Shown one piece after another: positions 2,498 through 31,311 of a stretch of DNA of 44,858 bases. This stretch comes from a virus: positions 1 to 44,858 of IMG/VR virus record IMGVR_UViG_3300022745_000057; one strand, given 5' to 3'. A program made the position numbers and the translations under genes. The first letter of the stretch is position 1. Every line of letters begins with the position of its first letter. The notes under the pieces were generated by a model, which did no database searches, was not told the DNA's origin, and saw nothing but the letters and a program-made list of their open reading frames with translations.

Positions 2498-4852
2498 CTA
2501 TCCTCGCTGGGGGAAGGCCACGACCCTCCCGGATGATGCGACCTGGCGTGACACCGGGCCGTTCCTGAGCACCTCTGCTACCACGTTTGCGGGGTCTTTG
2601 AAAATATCCGGCGCGACACGCCCGATGACGCGCAAGGCGCGCATGCGCCCATCGATCCGGACGCGATCCGTATGACCCTTCGGCACCATGCGCGAGCGGC
2701 GCGTCAGCATGCGTTCGGCCATGCGCTGCCAGTCGTCGGGGACCTCGACGGCGTTCTCGGCCAGATAGTCCTCGATGCGCAAGATGATCTGCTCCTTGAC
2801 AACGAGCGTATCGGCGATGCCGTGCAGCGCCCAGGCAAAGGCGCGGTCCAGATCGGAGGCGCCGGCCTCGACCATCTCGGCCTTGGCGGCGGTCATAGGC
2901 GGCGCGATGTAGGGGTTGTAGGTGCTCAGATCCATCGCCCTGAGCGCCGCGACGAAGGCGCCGATATTGGCACGGTCGCGCCGCCAGGCGTGGAACTGCG
3001 CCCAGTATTCGGCGGGCATTGGCTGGCCGTTCTCGAGCACGGCAATGCGCCGGTCATTGGCGGGGATGACGAAGGCGTCGGCGTGGTTGGTGGCGATGAA
3101 GATCGAGGCGTAGGTTCTTTCGCGGGTGTTCTTGACGCCCTTGCGCTTGATATGGAGATTGCGCGTCGCGGGGTCGACGACCGTTTTCAGGTGCTCGTAG
3201 GCGTTGCTGCGCACCTGCCATGAGGTGAGGCCGCCGGTCGCTTCCTTGGCCTCGTCGACGACGACCAGCAGGCTGTTGCTCTGCCATTCATTGTACTGGC
3301 TTTGCGTGCCCTGCCCGACAAGCGTCGGAAAGTCGACGGGCGCGACATAGTCGTCACCGAAGATATCGGTCATCAGGGCGATCAGCGACCCGCGACCCGT
3401 GCCGTAGGAATCGCGGGCCACCATGATGACGGCGGGGCCCGGAACTTCCGGATGCTGGACCTTATAGGACAGCCACTGGAGAAAGAATTGCCGCTCTTCG
3501 GCGATCGGCAGGAGGTTGGCGATCATGGCCAGCCCGACGCTGGCGTCGCCGCCGGCGGCGAACTGCATCGGGCGGTAGGTGTTGACGTGCAGCACGCCGT
3601 TCTCGGTGTAGAGCGGTCCTGGCCGGTCGGGGCGCATCTGCATGGTCGCGGCGGTCAGGCGGCGATGATGCTCGCGCCAGAGATCGGACAGGCGCGTCAC
3701 GACGTCGCCGCCCTTGGGTCCTTGCTTGACCTCGCGGAAGGGCGCCAGCGTGTCGTGCAGCGCCCCCATCTTCTGCGTCAGGAAAGGCTGGCCCAGATCG
3801 CAGACAAGGCTGTCGTTCTCGACATAGACGTAGCGCTGCAACGCGATCGCCAGATTGGTGTCGAGCGGCCAGAGCGGGTCCATCCGCAAATCTTCGATCA
3901 CGACAGGTTCGGGCGCTTCGACTTCCGGAAATCGCTCAGCGAGCAGCGCGCCGAGCTTGGCGGTCGCGGCGTCGATGTCCTCATCCTTCATGAAGTGCGA
4001 TGTGTAGGTGCCGTGATCCGAGAGGCACAGATTGTCGTTGACGAGGCTGGCCATGCCCGCCCAGCTGCCGCCGGTCGGGCGCAGCGCGTCGACCTTGCAG
4101 CGCAGCACCTCGTCCTCCGGCGCGTGCCGCAGGGCGTCGATGATCTCGACGACGCTCATCTCGCCCATGTCCTGGACGTCGAAGACCATGTCGGGCGTCA
4201 GGTCGTAGACGTGGCTATAGCCGGCGTCCGTGCCGCCACCGGGGCTGCGGCGCTCAAGGCCGCGATCGGTGAAGAACGCCGTGCAGAAGTCGCGGATCGC
4301 GTCGACCTGCGCGCGGCTGATCTCGGGCAGATCCATATAGGACGCGTCGAGCAGCGATTTCTCCGGCCAGCTATAGGCCGTGTTCGCATCGCGCTGGCCG
4401 TAGGCGGCGAACTGACAGCCGGCGCCAAGGATCTCGACGGCGAAGCCCTTGTGGTCCTCGGCGGCGCCGGGGGGCATGAAGTGCCCTGTCGTGCGCTTGC
4501 CGATCTTTTCCGCCGTACGGTAGACCCACAATTCGCGCGGCGGCATGCCGACGCGGACAAAGGGCGACTCGGCGACGAGCCCTTCGGCGACGACAGCGTC
4601 GAGCAGATCGTTGAGCAAATCCTTGTCGTCAATGTCCCAATCGAGGGCCACCACGTCGCCGCAACGGATGCCGGTGTCGAGAAAGGATTTGGAGCGCGCC
4701 CATTCTTTCGACTGGATGATCTCGGGCGTGACCTCAAGCGTGCTCCACTCGCGGATCAGGCACATTTTCCGTTGGTTGGCGAGCGGCGTGAAGCCGTTGT
4801 GGTAGAGCTTCAGGCGCAGCGCCGTGCGGTCTTTGTGGGCGTCGATTGTCAT
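2498..4852 (-). CDS. Bifunctional primase-helicase (prim-pol / SF3 helicase)
   Basis: A 784-residue replication protein. The N-terminal part resembles archaeo-eukaryotic-type prim-pol primases, with a metal-binding acidic pair in ALDWDID (Asp71, Asp73) and a later GAGCQFAAYG segment. The C-terminal part is a superfamily 3 / P4-type helicase. Its Walker A-like loop is YGTGRGS at about residues 483-489, Walker B is LLVVVDEAKE, motif C is IFIATNHADAF near 594, and NDRR provides an Arg finger. It would synthesise primers and unwind the fork for the phage family A polymerase. It overlaps the methyltransferase gene upstream by ATGA and lies four bases before the endolysin, so replication and lysis genes share a transcript. 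Confidence 0.8.
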   Translation of the reverse strand: MTIDAHKDRTALRLKLYHNGFTPLANQRKMCLIREWSTLEVTPEIIQSKEWARSKSFLDTGIRCGDVVALDWDIDDKDLLNDLLDAVVAEGLVAESPFVRVGMPPRELWVYRTAEKIGKRTTGHFMPPGAAEDHKGFAVEILGAGCQFAAYGQRDANTAYSWPEKSLLDASYMDLPEISRAQVDAIRDFCTAFFTDRGLERRSPGGGTDAGYSHVYDLTPDMVFDVQDMGEMSVVEIIDALRHAPEDEVLRCKVDALRPTGGSWAGMASLVNDNLCLSDHGTYTSHFMKDEDIDAATAKLGALLAERFPEVEAPEPVVIEDLRMDPLWPLDTNLAIALQRYVYVENDSLVCDLGQPFLTQKMGALHDTLAPFREVKQGPKGGDVVTRLSDLWREHHRRLTAATMQMRPDRPGPLYTENGVLHVNTYRPMQFAAGGDASVGLAMIANLLPIAEERQFFLQWLSYKVQHPEVPGPAVIMVARDSYGTGRGSLIALMTDIFGDDYVAPVDFPTLVGQGTQSQYNEWQSNSLLVVVDEAKEATGGLTSWQVRSNAYEHLKTVVDPATRNLHIKRKGVKNTRERTYASIFIATNHADAFVIPANDRRIAVLENGQPMPAEYWAQFHAWRRDRANIGAFVAALRAMDLSTYNPYIAPPMTAAKAEMVEAGASDLDRAFAWALHGIADTLVVKEQIILRIEDYLAENAVEVPDDWQRMAERMLTRRSRMVPKGHTDRVRIDGRMRALRVIGRVAPDIFKDPANVVAEVLRNGPVSRQVASSGRVVAFPQRG

Positions 4853-5997
4853 TCGGCGGCCTGCATCTTCTCAGCCACACGCGATTCCGCCGCAGCGATC
4901 CGCGCGTCGGCGATGTCGAAATAGCCTGCGTCCATTTCGATCCCGATGAAATTGAAGCCTTCCAGCACGGCACCGCGTCCGGTACTACCGCTGCCCATGA
5001 ACGGGTCGAGCACCGTGCCGCCAGGCGGCGTGACAAGGCGGCACAGATAGCGCATGAGGTCGGTCGGTTTCACGGTGGGGTGCGTATTCTTGTAGGCGGT
5101 TGTGCGCCCTTCGCTGATGCTGGACGGCTTGCCGCTCGTGCCGTTGGCCGTCGCGAAGGTGACGACCGGCTTTTCTTTGGTCGTCATGCCGTCGTCGCGG
5201 TCAGCTTTGCTAGCCTTGGCGCAATAAAAATAGCGCGCGGCGGAACCGGTTGAACCTGCGTGGCCTTTTTCATCACGCAATTCGAATTTGCCGAAGGCGT
5301 TTTTGGTCTTCGGTTCATTCCGATGGCCGTTGAATGTTCCGACAGTAGTTACCGGGAACGCCTCAACGACCTCGTCGCTGCCGTCGTGGATGACGTTAGC
5401 AGGCCAGCGCCCAACCGGGTCATAGTTGTCTCGGTCTTTGTCGTATTTGCCAAAGACCTGATTGGTCATAGGGCCGCTACCGAAATCCGCGTGCTGGTTC
5501 TTCGTTTTGGCCTCTTGCTCATCGGCTTTTCCGGCGAACGACACACGGCATCCATCGATATTCAGCGCCCCGACGCCATACGCCGCGAGGTTCGCTGGCA
5601 CCGTGCCGATCAGCGGCTTGCGCGCCATGACAATCGGTTCATGCGCGGGCTTGAGGGCGGTGCCCCAGCCTTCCCAGTCACCGTCTTGGTTGGACGATTT
5701 CGGAAAGCCGCTGCCGTATATCCACATGATCTGGTCGCGGATTTCAAAGCCTGCGTCCTCGATGGCAACGGCCATGCGATGATAGGTTCGTGACCCGCCG
5801 AAGCTCAGCAAATGACCACCGGGCTTGAGCACGCGCAGGACTTCCCGCCAGATGTCGGCACCCGGAACATCATAGTCCCAATGCTTGCCCATGAAGGCGA
5901 GCCCGTAGGGCGGGTCGGCGACGACGCTATCGACGGAATTGTCCGCCAGCTCCTTGAGGACAACGCGGCAATCGCCCTCGATCAGTTCAACGGTCAT
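4849..5997 (-). CDS. DNA methyltransferase, beta-class N4-cytosine/N6-adenine
   Basis: A 382-residue amino-methyltransferase. Motif IV DPPY is at residues 28-31, near the N-terminus, and motif I is DPFMGSGSTG at 331-340, followed by GIEMD (motif II). This IV-then-I order is the beta class of S-adenosylmethionine-dependent DNA methyltransferases. RVLKPGGHLLSFGG is the usual strand after motif IV. The central region (about 120-300) would hold target recognition. No restriction endonuclease is adjacent, so it is best read as a solitary enzyme that protects phage DNA or alters host methylation. The start at 5997 follows the exact leader box GAAAGGAACC (6002-6011). Target sequence and base specificity cannot be read from the sequence. 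Confidence 0.85.
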   Translation of the reverse strand: MTVELIEGDCRVVLKELADNSVDSVVADPPYGLAFMGKHWDYDVPGADIWREVLRVLKPGGHLLSFGGSRTYHRMAVAIEDAGFEIRDQIMWIYGSGFPKSSNQDGDWEGWGTALKPAHEPIVMARKPLIGTVPANLAAYGVGALNIDGCRVSFAGKADEQEAKTKNQHADFGSGPMTNQVFGKYDKDRDNYDPVGRWPANVIHDGSDEVVEAFPVTTVGTFNGHRNEPKTKNAFGKFELRDEKGHAGSTGSAARYFYCAKASKADRDDGMTTKEKPVVTFATANGTSGKPSSISEGRTTAYKNTHPTVKPTDLMRYLCRLVTPPGGTVLDPFMGSGSTGRGAVLEGFNFIGIEMDAGYFDIADARIAAAESRVAEKMQAAE

Positions 5998-6039
5998 AGG
6001 CGGTTCCTTTCAGGTGTGGCCCGCGGGGGCCGGGGCAGT

Positions 6040-9000
6040 CTAGGCTGATTTGGTGTAGTACCAGGAGGTCGAGACTTCGGCCGCTAAAGGCAGTCCTTCG
6101 GTCCAATCCCAGCCCCTGACCATAGTTTCGTGCAGGCGTTCTGCAAAGGCCCCAGCGCTAGTCTCGTCGACCTCGCCGCCTACTTCATCATGTGTGTGGA
6201 GGACGATTTGGGCCTCTTTCTCCTCAACATCTAGCCGCACCAAGGTCTGGCGAAGAATCGACGCCGCCGTGGCCTGCGTGCAGTTGTGAACAAGGAACGG
6301 AACGCCGTCGCTATCAAACACCGTAAAGCGGTTGCGCGGGCCGCAGTTGAGCAGATCGTAGACTTTTACCGATACCGGTTGTCGTAGGCCGGGGGTAAGA
6401 ATAGCTCGCTCGTCGCCCAGCCGTGGTCCAGTCTGTAAAGCAGCGTCGTCACGCCTATCCCGCTCACTTCCGAGGCTTCGATTACCAGCATGCGGCCCTT
6501 CGGCGTGTCGACCATCCGGTTCTGTCGGGTGTTCCGCATCTGCTCGCGTCGAGTCGCCCAATAGCAGTTCGTCGGTTCGTAACTCCCGTGGTTGTTCGAC
6601 CGCTCGATCTGAAGCCCCGATCGATAGGTCGGGCCCATATCGGTCCAAAAGGTCTCGAACGATTGTAGCCACTGGGGGCAGACCGTGATCCCGCGCCCAC
6701 CGTAGTTCTTCCACGCCTGATGGGTTGGTAGGGTACAACGATCGACCATTGAGCGCCACACCGAGTATGCCGGATGTTGAGACATACCGTGGGAACGACG
6801 CGCGGCCGCTCGCAGCTCCTTGGTTCTGCAACCACAGTTTGTAGGCGACGGCTTTCGATTGCTCCTGAAGCCATCGGTAGGCACCTCCAATTCTCTCCCG
6901 CAAACGCAGCGCGCCCACCAAATGGCCTTTTTGCCGTGGCCCGCCGTCCGATCTGAAGGTTTCAGCATCGTTAGGAAGCCAAACGTCTGCCCGGTCATAT
7001 CGCGAACAATCTTCCGCTTTTTTCCAGCCATCTACGATCCTCACCAAGTGATCGGGGGTCAAACGAACACCCCACTTATCGATGACCGGCTGAATGCCTT
7101 TCAGGATTAGCTTGGAGTGCGGAACCCATTCAATACCGTCCCACAATAGGTCGGTCCCTTGAACCATGTCAAGGCGAACAATACCGCGCCTCGTAAGAAC
7201 CGGGGTATCGCCGGCCAAACAATTCTCAATCTGGAGCCCGTCCCACAGGTGCCGGTAGCCCATACCGTTCAGATAAGTTATCGCGTCCTGCATTTTACCG
7301 AACTTCTCCACTCGAGAAATCTTGGCTTTTGGATACACGATAGGTCGCCCATCTGGCAGGTACGCGACCAATGTCCCGCCCATCAGACCAGGTACAAACT
7401 GGTATTGGATACGCCCAGCTTTCAACATATCGCCGGGCTGGCGCATCGCCGAGAACGCGGCCTCTTCGCACTTCACGCCAAACCGCTTGTTCCAGCGGTT
7501 ACGGTCGCGCCAGCCGTCGACCCACGTCTTGGCTTCTTCGTTCGACAGCCGGATGCCGTAATTCTTGGCCATCGCCTTGAGCGCACCGACCGAGCCGCGG
7601 AAACCCAGCGACAGCACCATGACCTTACCGCCCTGGCGGTACGCCTTCGCTTCCGGGTCGCCGTTCATATAGCGCTCCCAGAGCACGTCCGGGTAGACCT
7701 TGAACACCTGCGCGGCGTTCAGCACGTAAACGTCCGGTTTGGTCTTGTCGACGTCGCTCTCACGGAACGGCACCAGTACCGCCTCCTCGGCGTCGCGCGT
7801 CGCGGCGAGCCACGGCGTCACGCGCGCCTCGATCGCGGACCAGTCGCCCCAGACCAGCAGCTTGCCCATCGGCGCGATAAAGGTCGGGCGGATCAGCTTG
7901 GCGAGGACAGACGACACCGGCCCGATCTCGCGCAGCTTCTCTATAGGTACGTTAGCTGCGACCAGATCAAGTACATCTAGCTCATTCTTCAAGTAATCAC
8001 GCGGCAAATTGTGTATCTGTGTTCCGCGGGAACTATAGCGCCCCGTTTGCCCCGCGCCGTTAAATACATACGAGCCAGTAAGTCTACCGTCTACACTTTG
8101 GTCGAGGATCTTCTGGAACTTCAACGCCGACGACGACCGGCCAAATTGAAGAACTTCGATCAGATCGATGACCTCGTCCGCCGGCGGCGTATCGCTCGTC
8201 TGGAATTCTTCCAGCAAACGCGTCATGATCGTCTTGTCGCCGGTGAGATTGGTGACGTACCCCTCGTCGTCGCGCTTCTTGACCATCAGTTCGGCGAGGT
8301 CGTCAGGCAGCCGATCGTAGACCCACTGGTTGATCTGGGCGGTGAAGCTCGGGCCGGCGATGGCGCCGCCAGTGATTTCCTTGACGCGCTCGACGACATA
8401 GGCGGCCTCCTCGACATGGTAGGTCGCCGCGCCGGCGCACACGTCGAGATCGGCGAGCATACCGCGGTCATTGATCTTCTCGGAGACCCAGTATTCCGCC
8501 CACTCCTGCGCGTCCAAGGGCCGCGTGCACTTCCACACGTCGCGCATCAATTCCGTATCCTGCACGGAATAGTCGAGATAGAGCGCCCAGGCGTCGATGG
8601 CCGTCTGCACGGCCTTCTCGCGTGAATAGCCCTTGGCCATCAGCGCCGCAATGTCGGCGGGCGCGCCGGGCAGCGGCTGGGCCGCGTCGGCGAAACGCTT
8701 CATGATCGCCTTGCCGCCAATGGTTTTGGTGCCGAGCCCCAGTGCCCGTCCGGCGAAATCGAGGCCGCCCGGAAGATTCGATGCCTGCGCTTGGGCCTGG
8801 TTGTCCAGGACACGCTCGAGCGGCAAATGCGGGAAACCATAGTCCGGCGTCGCGATCTGCTGCCATACATTTCGGTCAAACGCCGCGTTGTGTGCGACGA
8901 CATAGCCGTCGGGCTGTTCAAGATGCGCTCGGATGTCGTGCGGGGCCGGCCCGTGCGCGAACATCCGGTTGTAGACGTAGGCCCATACATCGACGTTCAG

Positions 9001-9162
9001 GTGGCGGCTGATGTCCGGGCACCAAAGCTTCACCGGCTCGTCATCGACGGCCCAGGACAGGAGCAGCGGTTGCGTGCTCGGGTCGAGCACGTATTTAAGC
9101 GTGCCGGTGACCGTCAGGTCGAGCGCCGAGCGCGTCTCCCAGTCGAAGAAGCAGAAGCTCAT
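6040..9162 (-). CDS. DNA polymerase I (family A) interrupted by an intein
   Basis: A 1040-residue precursor. The 3'-5' exonuclease domain shows DWETRS (Asp7, Glu9), HNAAFD (Asn92, Asp96) and DYSVQD (Tyr198, Asp202). The polymerase palm and fingers show motif A DWSAIEAR (Asp440), motif B (Arg509, Lys513 and LGFRG at 519-523) and motif C HTHDEV near the C-terminus. There is no 5' nuclease domain, as in many phage enzymes. An intein of 313 residues (648-960) sits between QIEN and CTQATAAS, inside the conserved element that contacts the primer-template; removal leaves a 727-residue enzyme. The start (9162) overlaps the upstream gene as ATGA. Activity depends on intein splicing. Confidence 0.9.
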   Translation of the reverse strand: MSFCFFDWETRSALDLTVTGTLKYVLDPSTQPLLLSWAVDDEPVKLWCPDISRHLNVDVWAYVYNRMFAHGPAPHDIRAHLEQPDGYVVAHNAAFDRNVWQQIATPDYGFPHLPLERVLDNQAQAQASNLPGGLDFAGRALGLGTKTIGGKAIMKRFADAAQPLPGAPADIAALMAKGYSREKAVQTAIDAWALYLDYSVQDTELMRDVWKCTRPLDAQEWAEYWVSEKINDRGMLADLDVCAGAATYHVEEAAYVVERVKEITGGAIAGPSFTAQINQWVYDRLPDDLAELMVKKRDDEGYVTNLTGDKTIMTRLLEEFQTSDTPPADEVIDLIEVLQFGRSSSALKFQKILDQSVDGRLTGSYVFNGAGQTGRYSSRGTQIHNLPRDYLKNELDVLDLVAANVPIEKLREIGPVSSVLAKLIRPTFIAPMGKLLVWGDWSAIEARVTPWLAATRDAEEAVLVPFRESDVDKTKPDVYVLNAAQVFKVYPDVLWERYMNGDPEAKAYRQGGKVMVLSLGFRGSVGALKAMAKNYGIRLSNEEAKTWVDGWRDRNRWNKRFGVKCEEAAFSAMRQPGDMLKAGRIQYQFVPGLMGGTLVAYLPDGRPIVYPKAKISRVEKFGKMQDAITYLNGMGYRHLWDGLQIENCLAGDTPVLTRRGIVRLDMVQGTDLLWDGIEWVPHSKLILKGIQPVIDKWGVRLTPDHLVRIVDGWKKAEDCSRYDRADVWLPNDAETFRSDGGPRQKGHLVGALRLRERIGGAYRWLQEQSKAVAYKLWLQNQGAASGRASFPRYVSTSGILGVALNGRSLYPTNPSGVEELRWARDHGLPPVATIVRDLLDRYGPDLSIGASDRAVEQPRELRTDELLLGDSTRADAEHPTEPDGRHAEGPHAGNRSLGSERDRRDDAALQTGPRLGDERAILTPGLRQPVSVKVYDLLNCGPRNRFTVFDSDGVPFLVHNCTQATAASILRQTLVRLDVEEKEAQIVLHTHDEVGGEVDETSAGAFAERLHETMVRGWDWTEGLPLAAEVSTSWYYTKSA
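6283..7221 (-). other. PolA intein (splicing element, residues 648-960)
   Basis: The intein begins with Cys in CLAGDTPV (block A) and has TPDH (block B) about 50 residues later. It ends with VYDLLNCGPRNRF (block F) and LVHN followed by an extein Cys (block G). All residues needed for standard Cys1 / Asn-terminal / Cys+1 splicing are present; the block F His is not obvious. Between blocks B and F the in-frame translation has no recognisable endonuclease and looks like a shadow of another frame (Arg, Asp and Gly rich). That DNA encodes an HNH protein in a different frame (6366-7031). The splicing parts alone total only about 90 residues. Confidence 0.85.
6366..7031 (-). CDS. HNH homing endonuclease nested out of frame in the polA intein
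   Basis: A 221-residue protein in a different frame from the polymerase on the same strand, lying wholly inside the intein. It shows an N-terminal Cys-rich element (CVCG, then CGC), the block YSVWRSMVDRC and the signature KNYGGRGITVC. SNNHGSYEPTNCYWAT follows, typical of a family of phage HNH endonucleases, and the C-terminus (MLVIEASEVSGIGVTTLLYRL) resembles NUMOD-type DNA-binding modules. The ATG at 7031 has GTGAGGA six bases upstream, formed by codons of intein block B. The TAA at 6366-6368 falls exactly at the start of block F. It fills the slot where an in-frame endonuclease domain normally sits. Confidence 0.75.
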   Translation of the reverse strand: MAGKKRKIVRDMTGQTFGFLTMLKPSDRTAGHGKKAIWWARCVCGRELEVPTDGFRSNRKPSPTNCGCRTKELRAAARRSHGMSQHPAYSVWRSMVDRCTLPTHQAWKNYGGRGITVCPQWLQSFETFWTDMGPTYRSGLQIERSNNHGSYEPTNCYWATRREQMRNTRQNRMVDTPKGRMLVIEASEVSGIGVTTLLYRLDHGWATSELFLPPAYDNRYR

Positions 9163-9779
9163 GCTGCGGTACTCGCCAATCTAATCAGCAAATCGCGGAA
9201 TTCGGGCGGGGTATGGATGCGCGGCGTGCTATTCGTCCCTCCGCCGCGGGCCCCCACTTCGCCGAGACGCTTGGCGCGTTTCAGGCCCATGCGCGCCACC
9301 ACAGCCGGGTCGTACTTAGCTTCGGTATGCCCCCAGCGTAACTCCAGGCGCTCGGTGCGCACAGCATAGATAAGTGTCGGCTTGCGAGCATAATGCCCGT
9401 ATTGCCCCTGCTCGACACAGCAGGTCCAGCCGTAATTGTCGGCTTTGATCCAGCCGCCCGCGCGCGCAGGCACGGTCAGGCCGAAGTGAGGCCACGCATG
9501 ACTACCCCATGGGTGCTCGAGCACACCGCCAAATTCGCGAACAGCCGCGAGCGCGGCTTTGAAGCACCCGTTGTCGTCGCCCTTTATTTTACGCACGCCG
9601 GTACGCTTTACGGTGAGCGGTTGGCCGAACCACATTTTCCCCCAGCGCTGGCAAGGCGGGTGCGCAACCACCGGCCACGGCCCGGCGTACAGGCGTGCGT
9701 CACGTACTTCGTCCCACGGATCAATATCTGGCAGACCAAAATATGCGCCGTTAGTTTCGACGTACAAAGCTGCAATCAC
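9159..9779 (-). CDS. PPC-motif protein, possible cytosine-methyltransferase relative
   Basis: A 206-residue protein with VVAHPPCQRWG (about residues 37-47), which recalls the catalytic Pro-Cys motif of C5-cytosine methyltransferases. GGVLEHPWGSHAW and RKPTLIYAV follow at the positions where such enzymes have their next conserved blocks. The glycine-rich S-adenosylmethionine motif I (FxGxG) is missing at the N-terminus, so methylation activity is doubtful. Similar short phage proteins are usually left as hypothetical. The start is GTG at 9779, preceded by the exact box GAAAGGAACC (9783-9792), which decides this start. Its stop overlaps the polymerase start as ATGA. Function is not established. 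Confidence 0.65.
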   Translation of the reverse strand: MIAALYVETNGAYFGLPDIDPWDEVRDARLYAGPWPVVAHPPCQRWGKMWFGQPLTVKRTGVRKIKGDDNGCFKAALAAVREFGGVLEHPWGSHAWPHFGLTVPARAGGWIKADNYGWTCCVEQGQYGHYARKPTLIYAVRTERLELRWGHTEAKYDPAVVARMGLKRAKRLGEVGARGGGTNSTPRIHTPPEFRDLLIRLASTAA

Positions 9780-9857
9780 GGTGGTTCCTTTCGAGAAGGC
9801 GTCGGGACCGGCGGCGGATCAAGACAACCGCCGGTCCCGTCGGGTCCGTCGCTGGAC

Positions 9858-10166
9858 CTACTCGTCGGTCTCGGCGTCCGCGGGGGACGCGTCGCCGAGA
9901 GCCTTGGAGTAGACATGCACAAGCGCGTCCTGTTCGTCGCGCTTGGCCTTTTCCATGGCCCGCCGCCGGATGATGATCCGCATGATCTTCGGATCGAGCC
10001 CAAAAGCCTTGGCCTCGTCGAAAATCTCCTTGCGGTCGTCCTGCAGGGCGCTGATCTCCTCGTTCATCCGTTCGATGCGCTCGACAAGCGCCCGAAGCTG
10101 GCCATGCGCCGGCGCGGCGTTGGTCGCCGCGTCGTGCTCGAGGTCACCCTTGGCTTTGCCCGCCAT
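9858..10166 (-). CDS. GapR-like DNA-binding protein (DUF2312)
   Basis: A 102-residue helical protein whose core (about 20-85) matches DUF2312/GapR, nucleoid-associated proteins of alphaproteobacteria that bind overtwisted DNA ahead of forks. Visible landmarks are QLRALVERIERMNEEI (coiled coil), DDRKEIFDEAKAFG, and DPKIMRIIIRRR with the basic DNA-contact helix. The C-terminus is acidic (DASPADAETDE). Established knowledge says host GapR stimulates type II topoisomerases and is needed for replication. A phage copy in the replication operon could serve phage forks or compete with the host protein. It lies four bases after the 266-residue gene upstream. Confidence 0.85.
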   Translation of the reverse strand: MAGKAKGDLEHDAATNAAPAHGQLRALVERIERMNEEISALQDDRKEIFDEAKAFGLDPKIMRIIIRRRAMEKAKRDEQDALVHVYSKALGDASPADAETDE

Positions 10167-13784: not shown

Positions 13785-13812
13785 CCATAAACATGGAAGG
13801 AACCCAGACACC

Positions 13813-18704: not shown

Positions 18705-18908
18705 TCAGGATCGATCTTTGCCGAGCAACGGGCCGCCTTGGTATTTTGCATAGACGCCGCTCACATATCGGATGACAGTACCGCCGCCGCCACATGTGGG
18801 GCATTCGTCGGGGATATGGTAGCCGACAAGCCCCGAACCAGAACACGTCCAACACCTTACCCGCTCAAAATCTTTTAACCGTTTTGTTACGGCGGATCGC
18901 GATGGCAT
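18705..18908 (-). CDS. CXXCXGXG zinc protein without a J domain
   Basis: Start chosen at ATG 18908 because the exact leader box GAAAGGAACC (18915-18924) lies six bases upstream. The 67-residue protein carries two DnaJ-type zinc repeats, CWTCSGSGLVG (Cys19, Cys22) and CPTCGGGGTV (Cys36, Cys39), enough to bind one zinc. There is no J domain, so it is not a full DnaJ. Many phages encode such stand-alone zinc ribbons of unknown role; substrate or nucleic-acid binding is possible. The N-terminus is basic (RSAVTKRLKDFERVR). Confidence 0.7.
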   Translation of the reverse strand: MPSRSAVTKRLKDFERVRCWTCSGSGLVGYHIPDECPTCGGGGTVIRYVSGVYAKYQGGPLLGKDRS

Positions 18909-19076
18909 TCGATCGGTTCCTTTCGAAGAAGATGGTGTGAAATCCATGGGCTCAGGCGATTTGACCGTTACGTGGACGCGCCTCTGGAACGCGCTGGAAG
19001 GGCGGCATCGCCTGTTTCGAGTTAGTCGGACCTTCCCATGGTTGCCCGCGCGGAACCTCCCTTCCACTGGAAATGT

Positions 19077-19185: not shown

Positions 19186-19258
19186 TGGTCGGGGTGGCAG
19201 ATCTGAACCTGCGACCTCCAGCTCCGCATGCTGGCGCTCTCATCTGAGCTACACCCCA
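19186..19258 (-). tRNA. tRNA-like gene, predicted anticodon GCG (Arg), shortened arms
   Basis: A cloverleaf can be drawn. The acceptor stem TGGGGTG pairs with CACCCCG (first pair U-G), the D stem is GCTC/GAGC, the anticodon stem is CCAGC/GCTGG with loop ATGCGGA, and an encoded ACCA ends the gene. With U33 fixed, the anticodon reads GCG, for Arg codon CGC. Two features are abnormal. The D loop has six bases and lacks the GG pair, and the T arm is one base short (4 bp with an 8-base loop, or 5 bp with a 6-base loop). Acceptor and T-arm sequence resemble bacterial tRNA-Pro. It may be a degenerate or specialised tRNA. Confidence 0.5.
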
Positions 19259-20938: not shown

Positions 20939-21013
20939 TGGTGCCAGATCATGGATTTGAACCATGGGCCTTCGCCTTACGGGGGCGCTGCTCTACCACT
21001 GAGCTAATCCGGC
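20939..21013 (-). tRNA. tRNA-Thr, predicted anticodon CGT, with C33
   Basis: Good cloverleaf: acceptor GCCGGAT with ATCTGGC, D stem GCTC/GAGC with loop AGTGGTA, T arm CATGG-TTCAAAT-CCATG, and A73 with encoded CCA. The anticodon stem is CGCC/GGCG below a mismatched 27-43 pair, with loop CCCGTAA, giving anticodon CGT for Thr codon ACG. Position 33 is C rather than the nearly universal U. A promoter (21021-21049) lies directly upstream and would start transcription at or next to the tRNA 5' end. ACG is common in GC-rich phage genes, so the tRNA may support late translation. Confidence 0.75.
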
Positions 21014-21049: not shown

Positions 21050-21100
21050 TAACCTAAAGCACTTGACCTATAACTTTTATCGGTGCTAAAAGCGCGGTCC

Positions 21101-21355
21101 ATGACCAGCTCGCGTAAAAACGGCCGGCCGCCCATGGACCGCCGCGCGGTTGCCGCGTGGCGGCACTATCGCGGGCACATCGATTCGCTGAGCCGTCTGG
21201 CCCGGCATGTCGGCGTGTCGCAGCCGGCGGTCGTCAAATGGCAGCAGGTGCCGAAAGAGCGCCTGGCTGTCGTCGCCGCCTATATCGGCATCCCGGCGCA
21301 TCTGCTGCGCCCCGATCTCGACCCCTTCTCTTCCCTCGACGCCAAAGGACAATAA
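21101..21355 (+). CDS. Cro/YdaS-like helix-turn-helix protein
   Basis: ATG 21101 is chosen; a GTG at 21083 would add six residues with no better ribosome site. The 84-residue protein has a basic opening (SRKNGRPPMDRRAVAAW) and a clear helix-turn-helix, LSRLARHVGVSQPAVVKWQQ. KERLAVVAAYIGIPAHLLRPDL follows, as in YdaS/Cro-type proteins that work as phage regulators or antitoxins. It is the first gene of a small rightward unit opposite the tRNA promoter, so it could control the divergent region. TTGACC at 21063-21068 may be part of its promoter. No toxin gene of known type is adjacent. Confidence 0.75.
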   Translation: MTSSRKNGRPPMDRRAVAAWRHYRGHIDSLSRLARHVGVSQPAVVKWQQVPKERLAVVAAYIGIPAHLLRPDLDPFSSLDAKGQ

Positions 21356-22111
21356 ATGGCCCCTGTTTCCAAGACGACCGCCGCGCTGTTCGCGGACCTC
21401 ACCGCCTACGCCGCCAATCTGGGCGACGTGCCCTATGACAAGCTCCTGTCGACCGCCGCCGAGGCCGGCTGGACTTACCGCCTGACGCAGCGCGAACTGA
21501 CGACCCCGCCGGGCGGCGGCACGCTGCTGACCTTCGACGTCCATGTCGGGCGCGACGGCGTGCTCGAGTTCTTCGACAGCGTCTCGATCGGAATCCCGCC
21601 CAATAATGGGCTCTATCCGGTGTCGCTGATCGCGCGCGCCCAGATCATCCCGACACTCATCCACCTGTTCTTCAACCGCCTGCCGCCGCTGGCCGCGCAG
21701 CCGCCCAAGCCGGTGACCGTCGACACCACCGACACTGCGGGCGATATCGTGCTGCCGGGCGAAAACGCGCCTGACGAGGTGGCGCGTCTCGAGGTCATCG
21801 CCCGGCGTGAGCCGGATGGCGTGCCGATCTTCAAGGACCTCTACGCCATGGGCGAGCCGACGAACGAGGTCATCGACGCCGTGCTGGACGAATTGGACGA
21901 TTTCCTGCAGCGCGCCTCGTCGGTCGAGCAGATCGACGCCATGGGCCGCAAGAACCCTGGCGTCATTTCGTTCGTCAAGGATCTCGGCACGCAGGCGGAC
22001 GTCGACGACTTCATGCGGATGGTCAATGAGCGGCGCAATGTCCTCGCGCCGCCGCAGCTCACCGCGACAGCACCGCGCCGGCGTGGCACGGCCGGGCGCA
22101 GTGTGAACTGA
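21356..22111 (+). CDS. 251-aa hypothetical protein
   Basis: A 251-residue protein whose ATG follows the previous stop directly. Residues 1-115 are alpha/beta with FADLTAYAANLGDVPYDKLL, GGGTLLTFDVHVGRDG and SVSIGIPPNNGLYPVS. A Pro/Thr linker follows, then an acidic helical part (NEVIDAVLDELDDFLQRASS, DDFMRMVNERRN) and a basic tail (PRRRGTAGRS). I recognise no family. The acidic helices suggest a protein-protein adaptor. It is the last gene before the putative small RNA at 22153. Confidence 0.6.
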   Translation: MAPVSKTTAALFADLTAYAANLGDVPYDKLLSTAAEAGWTYRLTQRELTTPPGGGTLLTFDVHVGRDGVLEFFDSVSIGIPPNNGLYPVSLIARAQIIPTLIHLFFNRLPPLAAQPPKPVTVDTTDTAGDIVLPGENAPDEVARLEVIARREPDGVPIFKDLYAMGEPTNEVIDAVLDELDDFLQRASSVEQIDAMGRKNPGVISFVKDLGTQADVDDFMRMVNERRNVLAPPQLTATAPRRRGTAGRSVN

Positions 22112-22117
22112 CGCCTC

Positions 22118-22146
22118 TTGCCTTCCGCCCCGACATCGGCTATAGA
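22118..22146 (+). promoter_or_regulatory. Candidate promoter of the small RNA
   Basis: TTGCCT (22118-22123) and TATAGA (22141-22146) are separated by exactly 17 bases. Each matches four of six sigma-70 consensus positions. It lies in the non-coding gap just after the 251-residue gene and would start a transcript near 22153 that reaches the terminator at 22226-22250. Confidence 0.4.
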
Positions 22147-22152
22147 GCCGGG

Positions 22153-22250
22153 GCCGGGGTGGTGCCCGGCGATCAGAGCTTTGCTCCGTCTCCGGACGTA
22201 GGTACAGGTCTGGTTCCTTTCGAAAGGCCGCCCTACGGGGCGGCCTTTTT
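22153..22250 (+). ncRNA. Candidate small RNA with complement of the leader box
   Basis: A unit of about 98 bases bounded by a promoter-like sequence (22118-22146) and an intrinsic terminator (22226-22250), with no reading frame having a ribosome site. The predicted RNA has a GC-rich 5' hairpin (GGGCCGGGGTGGTGCCC), a small hairpin (GAGC-TTT-GCTC) and then a region containing GGTTCCTTTC (22212-22221), before the terminator. That ten-base segment is the perfect complement of GAAAGGAACC, the box overlapping the Shine-Dalgarno site of eight genes in this window; with flanks the match reaches 13 bases for the genes at 18908 and 9779. It could act in trans on their translation. An alternative is a relic of a leader box from a lost minus-strand gene. 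Confidence 0.4.
22226..22250 (+). terminator. Intrinsic terminator
   Basis: An eight-base perfect stem (GGCCGCCC, 22226-22233, with 22238-22245) closes a TACG loop and is followed by TTTTT on the plus strand; AAA before and TTT after extend it. It ends the rightward unit 21101-22250 and, with a shorter T run on the other strand, may also stop leftward transcription from the convergent gene at 22258. Confidence 0.85.
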
Positions 22251-22257
22251 CGTTGGC

Positions 22258-22692
22258 TCAGATGTTCGCCAAGTCATCGTCATATGAGCCTGACTCCAGT
22301 ACGCGTTCAAGCCAGTTCCGCCTGTGCGCCAGTCGCGCCTCGAGATTGCGGTCGCGTTGCATGCTGATCTTGGCCGACAGCGAAAACGACGCGTAACTGG
22401 CGAGATCCGGATCGAGCCGGTCGACCCATGTTTCCTGGCGCAATCGCTGCCGCTGCGCCGCGGTCAGCCCGCCGAGCAATTTCAGAAGATTCCGCTCGCG
22501 CGTCAGGCCGAGTGCCATTGACGACGCGTCCTGCGGCGCGCCCCCTGAGGACAATCCGCCAAATCCGCCCATGCCCGCCGAGAGCGGGCGACCGATGCTT
22601 AATCCGGCCAGCTCTTCGGCGGTCTTTTTGAGCGCGGCGGGGGCGGCGACAGCCGCCCCGCCCATAAATCCGAAAAATGTCCTGCGCTTCAT
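22258..22692 (-). CDS. 144-aa protein with Tat-type signal
   Basis: The N-terminus MKRRTFFGFMGGAAVAAPAA has twin Arg followed by FFG and a mildly hydrophobic core, the pattern of twin-arginine export signals, though a non-cleaved anchor is possible. The mature part is Gly-rich (GMGGFGGLSSGG), then helical and charged (RERNLLKLLGGLTAAQRQRLRQE, ISMQRDRNLEARLAHRRNWL). Phage proteins with such signals are rare. No enzymatic family is visible, so the exported function is unknown. The start (22692) follows an AAAAGGAAA box and overlaps the upstream stop as ATGA region. It is the last gene of the leftward cluster 22258-27046. Confidence 0.6.
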   Translation of the reverse strand: MKRRTFFGFMGGAAVAAPAALKKTAEELAGLSIGRPLSAGMGGFGGLSSGGAPQDASSMALGLTRERNLLKLLGGLTAAQRQRLRQETWVDRLDPDLASYASFSLSAKISMQRDRNLEARLAHRRNWLERVLESGSYDDDLANI

Positions 22693-23437: not shown

Positions 23438-24006
23438 CTGGCGCGGGTCGGCTTGTGGGCCTTGGGCGGAAGCGGATAGTAGGCGATGGCGCAGTGCGCC
23501 GCGCAGTAGGGCTTGCCGTCCCGGACCGGTTCATTGCAGTAGGCCGCCGGGTCGCCGATCGGCCAGCGGCAGCCGTCGCGGTGGTCCTCGACGCGTACCG
23601 GCACGGATCCGGGCAGGGCTGTCCAGGCGCTCGCCGGTGGTTTGTAGAGGGCTTCCGGCGGCAAGGGCGGGCCGACGGGCAGCATGGCGGTCAACCCCTG
23701 GTGCGGCTTTGGGCGCATGGCGGCGGTCCTTTCGCGAATCGGCAGACGGGCGGGCTTTGGGCGGGGCAGCGGGCGTTTGGGCTTGGGCTTGGCTTTCCGG
23801 GCGGCATGGCCGCCGACAGCCGGGGCGAGGAAGGTAATCGGCTCGCCGCGGGCCCTGGCTCGGCTGGCGATGCCGGCAATGGCGCTGCGCGTCGTGCCAT
23901 GGCGCGCCGCGAGGGCGGCGTAGGATAGGCCCTCCGCCGCGCCGGCGCGCACGAGCGCGATCTTGCTGGCCATCGGCGTCTGGCGCCAGGTCGTCGGTTC
24001 GGTCAT
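23434..24006 (-). CDS. GcrA-like cell-cycle regulator
   Basis: A 190-residue protein with the two GcrA signatures. Residues 18-60 are a helix-turn-helix (LVRAGAAEGLSYAALAARHG, TTRSAIAGIASRARARG), comparable to the GcrA DNA-binding domain. Near the C-terminus is GCRWPIGDPAAYCNE followed by GKPYCAAHCAIAYYP, the GcrA Cys/His module that interacts with sigma factor. The middle is a Pro/Lys linker. In alphaproteobacteria GcrA activates genes whose promoters carry adenine-methylated GANTC sites. A phage version, together with phage methyltransferases, could redirect host RNA polymerase or phage promoters. It overlaps neighbours as ATGA. Confidence 0.8.
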   Translation of the reverse strand: MTEPTTWRQTPMASKIALVRAGAAEGLSYAALAARHGTTRSAIAGIASRARARGEPITFLAPAVGGHAARKAKPKPKRPLPRPKPARLPIRERTAAMRPKPHQGLTAMLPVGPPLPPEALYKPPASAWTALPGSVPVRVEDHRDGCRWPIGDPAAYCNEPVRDGKPYCAAHCAIAYYPLPPKAHKPTRAR

Positions 24007-26467: not shown

Positions 26468-26596
26468 TCAGAGCGGGCCGAAGTCCCAGCCGGCGGCGGT
26501 GGCGATGATGGTGAAGAGCACGAGCAGGGCGACGGCGCACATGGCGACGTCGGTGAGCGTGGGGTGGTCGTCCTGGTCGATCGGTTCGGGAGGCAT
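26468..26596 (-). CDS. 42-aa single-pass membrane protein
   Basis: ATG 26596 follows the exact leader box GAAAGGAACC (26604-26613), which makes this short gene convincing. The product has an acidic, polar N-terminus (PPEPIDQDDHPTLTD) and one hydrophobic helix at about 17-35 (VAMCAVALLVLFTIIATAAG), ending WDFGPL. Orientation by charge would leave the acidic N-terminus outside. No family is recognised. Confidence 0.6.
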   Translation of the reverse strand: MPPEPIDQDDHPTLTDVAMCAVALLVLFTIIATAAGWDFGPL

Positions 26597-26632
26597 GGCG
26601 GTCGGTTCCTTTCTTTCGGGGTTTGGTGAGGA

Positions 26633-27749: not shown

Positions 27750-27786
27750 GGCGAGGATCCTTTCAGGATGAGGGTGGAGCGGTTGG

Positions 27787-28077: not shown

Positions 28078-28103
28078 GGGCGGTTCCTCTGTCGCGGGCG
28101 GTG

Positions 28104-28148: not shown

Positions 28149-28766
28149 TCAGGTGCGGGCCCAGACGGGGCGGTTTGTCAGGCCGTCGACCCGCGTCGGC
28201 ATCAAGACGCCAAAGGCGATATCGGATCCCAGCCCGATGAACGCCGGGCCACTGCGTGCACCATGGCGGAGCGCAATGAGCGGCACGCGGCCGTTGATGA
28301 TTTTCGCCGCTTCGCCGAACGTGGCGATATAGTCGGCGTTATAGGCCCCGATCGTCAGCGTCTCGGCGTCGGGTTTGTCGGTGTCGGTATCGCTCGGCAG
28401 GACGCGGCGCCAGTCCGGGAAATGCCCGTCAATCAGCGGATTGTCTTGGAAGGCGATTTGCGCGCCGGTCGCGTTCAGCACCCAGGCGCGCGCCGGGGTG
28501 TCGAGGCTCAGGCGGCGCGGCTCCGTTTCGCCCTTGCCGCGCTTCAAGGCGGTCAGCGCCGGCTTGTCGAGGTGCACGATTACAGCTGCATCGCAGGCGG
28601 CAGAAGCGTCATGGACGGCAATCAGGCGGTGGCCATCGGTGGCGACAAGCGTCGCGCCGCCGGCGGTGCACGGTTCGATGTAGACGCCCTGCAGGTAGGG
28701 ACGCGTTTCCTCGGTGGAAACGCAAAGATAGGCGGCGCGGAAGAGGTCGGCATTCACGGTAAACAT
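28149..28766 (-). CDS. DNA polymerase sliding clamp-like protein
   Basis: Start chosen at ATG 28766, since the exact leader box GAAAGGAACC (28772-28781) lies five bases upstream. The 205-residue protein shows blocks of the bacterial beta clamp: LFRAAYLCVSTEETRPYLQG, VYIEP, and ATLVATDGHRLIAVH, the most diagnostic motif. PLIDGHFPDWRRVLPSD and a final VLMPTR strand follow. It is shorter than host DnaN (about 370 residues), so it holds one to two clamp domains. Phage copies of this size are common and may assemble as a ring of more subunits. It would tether the family A polymerase. It forms its own unit flanked by hairpins. Confidence 0.7.
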   Translation of the reverse strand: MFTVNADLFRAAYLCVSTEETRPYLQGVYIEPCTAGGATLVATDGHRLIAVHDASAACDAAVIVHLDKPALTALKRGKGETEPRRLSLDTPARAWVLNATGAQIAFQDNPLIDGHFPDWRRVLPSDTDTDKPDAETLTIGAYNADYIATFGEAAKIINGRVPLIALRHGARSGPAFIGLGSDIAFGVLMPTRVDGLTNRPVWART

Positions 28767-28820
28767 GGTTCGGTTCCTTTCGGTGGAGGGTGGCGGCATT
28801 TCAGGCTGAGCGCCTGTCAG

Positions 28821-28853: not shown

Positions 28854-29384
28854 TCAGGCGCGGCGGTTGAGGTCGGCCGCGATTTGCTCGACCACATAAT
28901 CGGCCGCGATAGCTTGACCGGTTGTGGTGCGCGCCCAGACGCAAAGGCCGGAAAAGTCCTTATCGACCTTTTCGCCATGCTCAATGAGCTGGTCGGCAAA
29001 CCAGTCCGTCACGGCCCAATGTTCGAACACTTCACGATCGTAAGGGTCGAGGCCATGAAAATCGCAATAGGCGATAGCGGCATTGCGCGCGTCGTCATAA
29101 AACGTGACGTACATATCGGAATCGGTGGGCGGGTCGAGCACAATCCACTTGCCGAAATTCGGGCTCGATTCCACGTCGATCTTGTCGATCTTGGCGCCAT
29201 GCTCGACTGCCGCCTCTTCCCAGTCGTCTACCGGCGCGGCGAGTTCAAAGGCTTGCTCGCTCAAGGCACTCAGGTCTTCCGCACCTGGATCGGTGGGAAA
29301 CCCATAGCCGAGCGCAAGCGTGCCCACGAGCGACGACAGGCAGCATAGGACTTCAGCGTGAACGATTTGTTCGGGAGTGCGCAT
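28854..29384 (-). CDS. 176-aa phage protein of unknown function
   Basis: A 176-residue acidic protein with PNFGKWIVLDPPTDSDMYV, AYCDFHGLDPYDREVFEHW and ADQLIEHGEKVDKDFSGLCV in order. WARTTTGQAIAADYVVEQI follows near the C-terminus. The EHWAVTDW-EHGEKV-DF-GL-W-RTTTGQAI pattern recurs in phages and plasmids without known function. The start (29384) follows the exact leader box (29393-29402), spaced eight bases. Its acidic nature leaves open a DNA-mimic type role, but no family evidence supports that. Confidence 0.6.
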   Translation of the reverse strand: MRTPEQIVHAEVLCCLSSLVGTLALGYGFPTDPGAEDLSALSEQAFELAAPVDDWEEAAVEHGAKIDKIDVESSPNFGKWIVLDPPTDSDMYVTFYDDARNAAIAYCDFHGLDPYDREVFEHWAVTDWFADQLIEHGEKVDKDFSGLCVWARTTTGQAIAADYVVEQIAADLNRRA

Positions 29385-29429
29385 TTTGGTTCGGTTCCTT
29401 TCAGGCGGTGGAGGTCTAGCGGTCTATTG

Positions 29430-29471: not shown

Positions 29472-29735
29472 TCAGGGATACGCGTTATAGAGGATGCCGA
29501 GGTTGACCGCTTCACGCATAGCGGCTTTGGCGTCACGCTTCAGCCGGAAGCCGATCATTCGCGCGCCGGCGTGCTCATCGGCCCAGCCAATGACGCGCAC
29601 ATATTGGCCGCCGTACAAAGATTCGTCATTGCTGTGCGCCTTGATGACCCACCCTTTCGTGCCCGCGATCTGCGTCACACTGGGGTCGCGCTGGAACAGG
29701 ACGCCATTGTGATCTAAGGTCTTGAATACTGACAT
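29472..29735 (-). CDS. 87-aa hypothetical protein
   Basis: An 87-residue protein with beta-like segments (GVLFQRDPSVTQIAGTKGWV, YGGQYVRVIGWADEHAG) and a C-terminal helix, KRDAKAAMREAVNLGILYN. No family is recognised. The exact leader box (29743-29752) lies seven bases before ATG 29735. It is the first gene downstream of the divergent promoter region with the TGTCAA/TTGACA inverted pair, so it is probably an early gene. Confidence 0.6.
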   Translation of the reverse strand: MSVFKTLDHNGVLFQRDPSVTQIAGTKGWVIKAHSNDESLYGGQYVRVIGWADEHAGARMIGFRLKRDAKAAMREAVNLGILYNAYP

Positions 29736-29805
29736 GTCAATTGGTTCCTTTCTGGTGTGAGGTAACGTCCTAAGCGAGTCGTTTGCCTGTCGTTACGTTG
29801 TCCCT

Positions 29806-30577: not shown

Positions 30578-30671
30578 CGCCATGCGCCTTAACATTCTTG
30601 CTTTCTGCTATTGACAAGCGGTCAGGTATGTAAGAGTGTCAAAGCCACACCAGGTTTGAAAGGAACCGACC

Positions 30672-30875
30672 GTGACCGTCATCGAATTCAACAAGTACTC
30701 GTCATCGTTCATCGCGATCCACGAGGACAAACAGGTCATGCACTTGGCGTTCAAGTCGCAAGCCGAGGCGTGCATAAAGGCCATGGTTGCCGGCCAACCG
30801 GTACCGGTTGGCGTTGTCGTCCCTTACTCAGTGGAGGCATGGGGTCGGCCGGTTGACATTGTCCGCAGGTATTGA
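30672..30875 (+). CDS. 67-aa hypothetical protein
   Basis: GTG start at 30672 with the exact leader box GAAAGGAACC (30658-30667) four bases upstream. The 67-residue product is alpha/beta (TVIEFNKYSSSFIAIHEDKQ, AFKSQAEACIKAMVAGQPVP) and ends VDIVRRY. No family is recognised. It stands alone between the small terminase gene and a terminator. A TTGACA at 30611-30616 lies upstream but without a clear -10; TGTCAA at 30637-30642 makes an inverted pair with it. Confidence 0.55.
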   Translation: MTVIEFNKYSSSFIAIHEDKQVMHLAFKSQAEACIKAMVAGQPVPVGVVVPYSVEAWGRPVDIVRRY

Positions 30876-31298: not shown

Positions 31299-31311
31299 GA
31301 AAGGACCCACG

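Follow-up and report, generated by a model that had tools for sequence, protein, structure and literature searches.

We found that the linear IMG/VR virus record IMGVR_UViG_3300022745_000057 (44.9 kb) quite probably encodes a conserved phage small RNA, which represses a non-structural regulon by covering Shine-Dalgarno sites. The whole stretch of 44,858 nt was analyzed and is referred to as the window. The RNA would have a promoter of its own, immediately after an operon of a cro-like and an annealing-protein gene, and would end at an intrinsic terminator. Between its second hairpin and the terminator a largely unpaired anti-Shine-Dalgarno stretch would pair with a box in about eight leaders, CCUUUC contacting the leader boxes and the neighboring GGUU joining in. 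Since this pairing would cover the Shine-Dalgarno core, an established mechanism of small RNAs, translation of the box genes is expected to fall together, with the timing of repression set by the promoter of the RNA. Complementarity between the stretch and the leaders is observed, while pairing in the cell is what we infer from it. A trans-acting phage RNA had already been suggested in a first-pass annotation of the window, and the sequence supports this reading, since it contains a unit of promoter and terminator and a stretch complementary to separately encoded leaders.

Genes of the window include a GcrA-like gene, a family A DNA polymerase, terminase and head genes; the GcrA-like gene suggests an alphaproteobacterial host. 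The convergent genes 21356-22111 (plus strand) and 22258-22692 (minus strand) flank a promoter-like pair, a stretch of 98 nt and a strong terminator. Upstream of the RNA the following genes are located:

21083..21355, plus strand: Cro/YdaS-like regulator gene, heading an operon with 21356-22111
21356..22111, plus strand: gene immediately 5' of the RNA, candidate ERF/SAK3-type single-strand annealing protein (Foldseek on a weak model)

The product of 21356-22111 is likely a single-strand annealing protein of the ERF/SAK3 type. Its protein model is weak (pTM 0.39); the best viral match in Foldseek was an Erf protein (3.6e-6) and Rad52 appeared among the weak PDB matches, and no match was found in Pfam or PHROG. 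Homologs of this gene accompany the RNA in 6/6 phages. Placement of the RNA behind a Cro/YdaS-like gene and the gene of a probable annealing protein suggests early or immunity control. A tyrosine integrase was looked for in three phages of the group and none was found.

The window polymerase gene (6040-9162, minus strand) carries an insertion of ~316 residues (about residues 646–961), which is missing in the homolog of a relative, G001. It begins with CLAGDTPV, ends with VHN before C and has an intein-like appearance; Pfam called no Hint domain in it. The polymerase frame of G001 (4279-7911, minus strand) opens with a C-5 cytosine DNA methylase domain (PF00145, 3.4e-34) and is apparently a methylase-polymerase fusion, as judged by its domains.

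The elements of the candidate RNA locus are as follows:

22118..22146, plus strand: promoter-like pair TTGCCT (22118-22123) and TATAGA (22141-22146), spaced by 17 nt, 7 nt past the stop of the 21356-22111 gene
22153..22250, plus strand: candidate small RNA of 98 nt, 5' end estimated from the position of the -10 hexamer
22153..22170, plus strand: 5' hairpin GCCGGG-GUGGUG-CCCGGC, with GUGGU invariant in six phages and compensatory changes in the stem
22171..22215, plus strand: second hairpin, imperfect, its 3' arm finishing in the GGTT of the box complement
22212..22221, plus strand: box complement GGTTCCTTTC, the pairing stretch, with CCTTTC (22216-22221) predicted to be unpaired
22222..22250, plus strand: intrinsic terminator, GC-rich, partly usable from the opposite strand too

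Both the promoter-like pair with 17-base spacing and the strong terminator of the first-pass annotation are present, the latter as a GC-rich stem (22222-22233/22238-22249) with a run of T (22246-22250). The promoter at 22118-22146 was not listed in a generic sigma-70 scan of the window (hexamers 4/6 and 4/6); it is supported because its position and the 17-nt spacer recur in five relatives. The fold of the 98-nt RNA scored z −5.6 against shuffles. In the predicted fold CCTTTC alone is clearly unpaired; GGTT lies mostly within hairpin 2, and GAAAGG inside the terminator stem. For full pairing with the box GGTT would have to open from hairpin 2, which, as far as the predicted structure goes, counts against the proposal. 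The palindrome CCTTTCGAAAGG described earlier does exist, but of its bases the predicted RNA leaves just CCTTTC unpaired.

The box GAAAGGAACC is found in 9 exact copies in the window, while 0.08 are expected from dinucleotide shuffles. Eight of these nine copies are followed 3–8 nt downstream by a start codon with an open frame, and the Shine-Dalgarno sites are covered. The ninth copy is located on the opposite strand inside the RNA, between the promoter-like pair and the terminator. The box genes start at 5997, 9779, 18908, 26596, 28766, 29384 and 29735 on the minus strand and at 30672 on the plus strand, with target boxes at the following positions:

6002..6011, minus strand: box of the DNA methyltransferase gene 4849-5997 (PF01555)
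9783..9792, minus strand: box of gene 9159-9779 (phrog_12600), 13 contiguous pairs
18915..18924, minus strand: box of the ORF starting at 18908 (67 aa), 13 contiguous pairs
26604..26613, minus strand: box of ORF 26468-26596 (42 aa)
28772..28781, minus strand: box of gene 28149-28766 (sliding-clamp/RusA-like)
29393..29402, minus strand: box of gene 28854-29384
29743..29752, minus strand: box of gene 29472-29735
30658..30667, plus strand: box of ORF 30672-30875

It was confirmed for all eight leaders that the RNA carries the exact complement of a box at the Shine-Dalgarno site, as first annotated. The contiguous complementarity between RNA and leader extends over 13 nt for the starts at 9779 and 18908, which bears out the 13-base pairing given for these two genes, and over 10–11 nt for the other six. 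Near-variants of the box also precede start codons, namely GAAAGGATCC (27755-27764), GAAAGGACCC (31299-31308), GAAAGGACC (23727-23733), AGGAACC (28082-28088) and GGAAGGAACC (13795-13804); judging from these boxes their genes are likely weaker members of the regulon. Over the three phages that allow a judgment 0/25 box leaders are located in the structural-gene region (combined P 0.013), so that we read the regulon as non-structural and probably early. The "regulon of early genes" proposed previously is partly supported, by the position of the boxes outside the structural regions of these three phages; the early timing is only probable. A conserved hairpin before the start of 9858-10166 was rejected as an element of interest, since by its sequence it is the conserved end of the preceding gene.

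No relatives of the window at the DNA level were found in the phage collection searched, and searches with single proteins returned mostly G001 alone. Alignment of the polymerase revealed relatives with 56–73% identity, and homologs of the 21356-22111 protein, 28–43% identical to it, were located in G001, G004, G005, G007 and G010. Downstream of the annealing-protein gene all five relatives contain a promoter-like pair, an RNA of 82–106 nt and a terminator. The common anatomy runs from the promoter through a 5' GUGGU hairpin and a further hairpin to a short stretch that is largely unpaired, and closes with the terminator. Promoter hexamers of the relatives are TTGACG/TAAGGA, TTGACA/CATATT, TTGACG/TATATA, TTGCGC/TATATA and TTGCGC/TATATG, and with the window included the spacer is exactly 17 nt in 6/6 phages. 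Each of the six RNAs folds with a z of −3.9 to −5.9 against shuffles. Across the six phages 91% of cells in the 5' hairpin are paired and 4 pairs are altered on both sides; this covariation score was reached by 0/500 shuffles, and the structure outscores every slid version. The 5' hairpin of G001 is weaker and in a different register.

An invariant GUGGU loop (22159-22164 in the window) is shared by the six RNAs and is possibly a contact for a protein or a host RNA; its complementarity to the leaders was not enriched, so that pairing with leaders does not account for the invariance of the loop, a point against the proposal. Pairing of GUGGU with the start codon region, which by eye looked good in G004 and G005, found no support, since no enrichment was seen. 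Relatives of the 9159-9779 protein are encoded in 134 viral stretches, and the RNA was found in none of the 80 that were kept. The unit is also absent from the examined 42.9 kb of Caulobacter phage RW (polymerase about 30%). A box copy at 22692 in G008 was set aside, as neither a terminator nor a promoter is adjacent.

The neighborhood of the unit bears on an alternative in which the RNA part is a 3' UTR/terminator module of the cro/annealing-protein operon, which has no promoter of its own, is processed from or retained on the operon mRNA and couples the operon to the box mRNAs. In the window and in G004 the annealing-protein gene indeed has its stop codon directly at the -35 hexamer, and the operon, too, uses the terminator. 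We nevertheless consider this alternative unlikely, because a promoter-like pair with the exact 17-nt spacer is present in all six phages. In G005, moreover, about 1.8 kb lie between the annealing-protein gene and the RNA, a box gene directly follows the annealing-protein gene, and the promoter travels with the RNA despite this distance.

We assessed the specificity of the unit with a descriptor of promoter, GUGGU hairpin and terminator. Scanning 1.7 Mb of phage DNA yielded 95 GUGGU hairpins, 5 with a promoter and 5 with a terminator; these are the identical five and all belong to the phage group of the window. Since the descriptor was built from the very sequences it recovers, the scan demonstrates that the unit is rare elsewhere and does not amount to an independent discovery. 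A more general search asked for words that recur in leaders and have an antisense copy preceding a terminator; it returned the window, G004 and G011, the last match being repeat-like coding sequence, and its strict terminator rule missed G005.

G004 and G005 carry GAAAGGAACC in 8 and 9 leaders, respectively, and the sole copy outside a leader is the stretch before the terminator. In the comparison of relatives called for by the first-pass annotation these two phages keep both box and complement, and no drift of the complement was found. G001 contains no GAAAGGAAC; the stretch there has changed to GGTTTTTCCTTTCAGG, and −23 kcal/mol is predicted for its pairing with the G001 leader CCTGAAAGGAAAGAACC. 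CAAGGAG is the form used in the G010 leaders, and CTCCTTGG occurs in the G010 stretch. When each stretch was compared with the leaders of the same phage, using shuffled stretches as control, z was −5.7 for the window, −4.3 for G001, −4.9 for G004, −6.2 for G005 and −3.3 for G010, while G007 (21 genes called) gave 0.0 and no pairing signal. By z the G010 leaders are fitted better by the G005 stretch than by their own. Hybridization beyond shuffled controls is thus seen in the window, G001, G004 and G005 and more weakly in G010, but not in G007; of the phages with a changed stretch, G001 and, more weakly, G010 may show complement and box changing together, and G007 lacks a signal. This cross-phage comparison is only partly independent, because Shine-Dalgarno complements pair somewhat with any leaders. 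Full-length duplex energies were dropped, since they ignore RNA structure.

On the same leaders the alphaproteobacterial 16S tail reached z −1.2 to −2.1. Since the z of the own stretch is more strongly negative than that of the 16S tail, the leaders by this measure match the RNA better than the ribosome, and the match exceeds generic 16S pairing because the AACC of the leaders pairs with the GGUU of the RNA.

Pairing might also activate or stabilize the box mRNAs, by protection from RNase or by opening of leader structure, instead of repressing them. Although the sequence contains nothing that excludes activation, we regard it as improbable: the Shine-Dalgarno core is paired, the box ends 3–8 nt from the start codon in 8/8 leaders, and pairing over the Shine-Dalgarno core usually blocks 30S binding. 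There is even less reason to expect a general anti-Shine-Dalgarno RNA that acts mainly on host mRNAs to shut off host translation, the phage leaders being hit incidentally. UCCUUUC is present in the alphaproteobacterial 16S tail as well, GAAAGGA is an ideal alphaproteobacterial Shine-Dalgarno sequence and the GcrA-like gene points to such a host; however, the phage leaders match past the 16S core, the strongest effect would fall on the repeated phage boxes, and pairing of the RNA with phage leaders is stronger than that of the 16S tail. The rival named in the first-pass annotation, that the ninth box is the relic of an inverted minus-strand leader left beside the terminator after gene loss and the RNA functionless, is highly improbable: the copy does come after a terminator that is partly bidirectional, a position expected of a leader located behind an operon, but no ATG, GTG or TTG follows at Shine-Dalgarno spacing in the window, G004, G005 or the changed G001 copy, and in diverged phages it occupies the corresponding position, accompanied by a conserved plus-strand promoter, covarying GUGGU hairpin and terminator, so that the whole unit is kept where a relic should have decayed.

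We then compared the repressing small RNA proposed here with known systems. Rfam 15 covariance models at the gathering threshold detected only a tRNA in the window and no family in the loci of the relatives; the best scores below threshold were 28.4 vs 47 bits for RNAI and 15.7 vs 41 bits for suhB/mmgR. Two tRNA genes, Arg(gcg) at 19186-19258 and Thr(cgt) at 20939-21013, both on the minus strand, were called by ARAGORN. As in trans-acting small RNAs, an independent unit with promoter and intrinsic terminator is present at the sequence level in six phages, and an accessible stretch finds its complement at the ribosome-binding sites of several mRNAs that are encoded separately. Alphaproteobacterial small RNAs (AbcR, NfeR1 and others) have hairpins, an exposed anti-Shine-Dalgarno stretch, an intrinsic terminator and many targets. 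The candidate RNA resembles AbcR and NfeR1 in all of these features; unlike these chromosomal RNAs it is encoded by a phage and aimed at a box common to the phage's own genes.

Phage regulatory RNAs covered in a review include lambda OOP and PreS, P22 sar, VP882 VpdS and phi24B 24B_1 (PMC12197685). Each of OOP, sar and aQ is antisense to a single gene that it overlaps; PreS targets a host gene and VpdS targets host and phage RNAs, and the section on control of phage replication and lysogeny mentions no RNA pairing with a leader box common to many phage genes (PMC12197685). OOP, PreS, sar, VpdS and 24B_1 share with the candidate RNA that they are phage-encoded and base pair with phage or host mRNAs; unlike the cis-antisense OOP and sar, the candidate is encoded between convergent genes and at a distance from every target.

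The Start-Associated Sequence (SAS) of cluster K mycobacteriophages is conserved beyond 16S pairing and confined to non-structural genes; Pope et al. did not settle on a mechanism and considered either an RNA or a protein as a possible binding partner (PMC3203893). Cluster EF Microbacterium phages carry a similar box (PMC7302621). Like SAS, the window box recurs at the ribosome-binding sites of numerous non-structural phage genes and is conserved beyond 16S pairing (0/25 structural leaders; 16S tail z −1.2 to −2.1), but it differs in sequence (GAAAGGAACC instead of GGGATAGGAGCCC) and in hosts. An RNA partner of SAS is not described in PMC3203893 and PMC7302621, whereas the window box has a candidate RNA partner.

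One reverse SAS copy each was found in four K1 phages, in 4/4 cases as CCTCCTATCC within a hairpin loop; the hairpin, GCGCGG-CCTCCTATCC-CCGCGC, is conserved and has a compensatory change in the lower stem in Anaya:

Anaya, JF704106, 59873: reverse SAS copy
Angelica, HM152764, 58637: reverse SAS copy
Adephagia, JF704105, 58686: reverse SAS copy
CrimD, HM152767, 58839: reverse SAS copy

In Anaya, Adephagia and CrimD the copy falls into a gap between annotated genes, and in Angelica a gene is annotated over it. In Adephagia the hairpin sits in the gap between genes 92 and 93, the reported start of late transcription (PMC11373665). The K1 copy differs from the RNA of the window in that it is not part of a comparable promoter-terminator unit. 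Cluster K2 phage ZoeJ was rejected as a parallel, its closest reverse SAS being an ordinary leader. By its sequence the K1 hairpin is a candidate anti-SAS RNA; the K1 SAS family is separate in sequence, and the same principle may have arisen twice. Tentatively, and with rather less than even confidence, we propose that a leader box, an extended Shine-Dalgarno box common to a non-structural regulon, together with a phage-encoded anti-box RNA forms a general, repeatedly evolved phage system for shut-off of a regulon, with cluster K SAS as a second instance. Shut-off of the box regulon perhaps takes place at the early-to-late switch. Such RNAs might be searched for through leader boxes that are repeated and have just one copy outside the leaders. 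If the proposal is true, one RNA of 98 nt and a 10-base leader address would control a block of phage genes post-transcriptionally, a block-wide control usually credited to proteins or promoters, and it would offer a concrete and directly testable answer to a question open since 2011, namely why in some phages a box is strongly conserved at the ribosome-binding sites of numerous non-structural genes.
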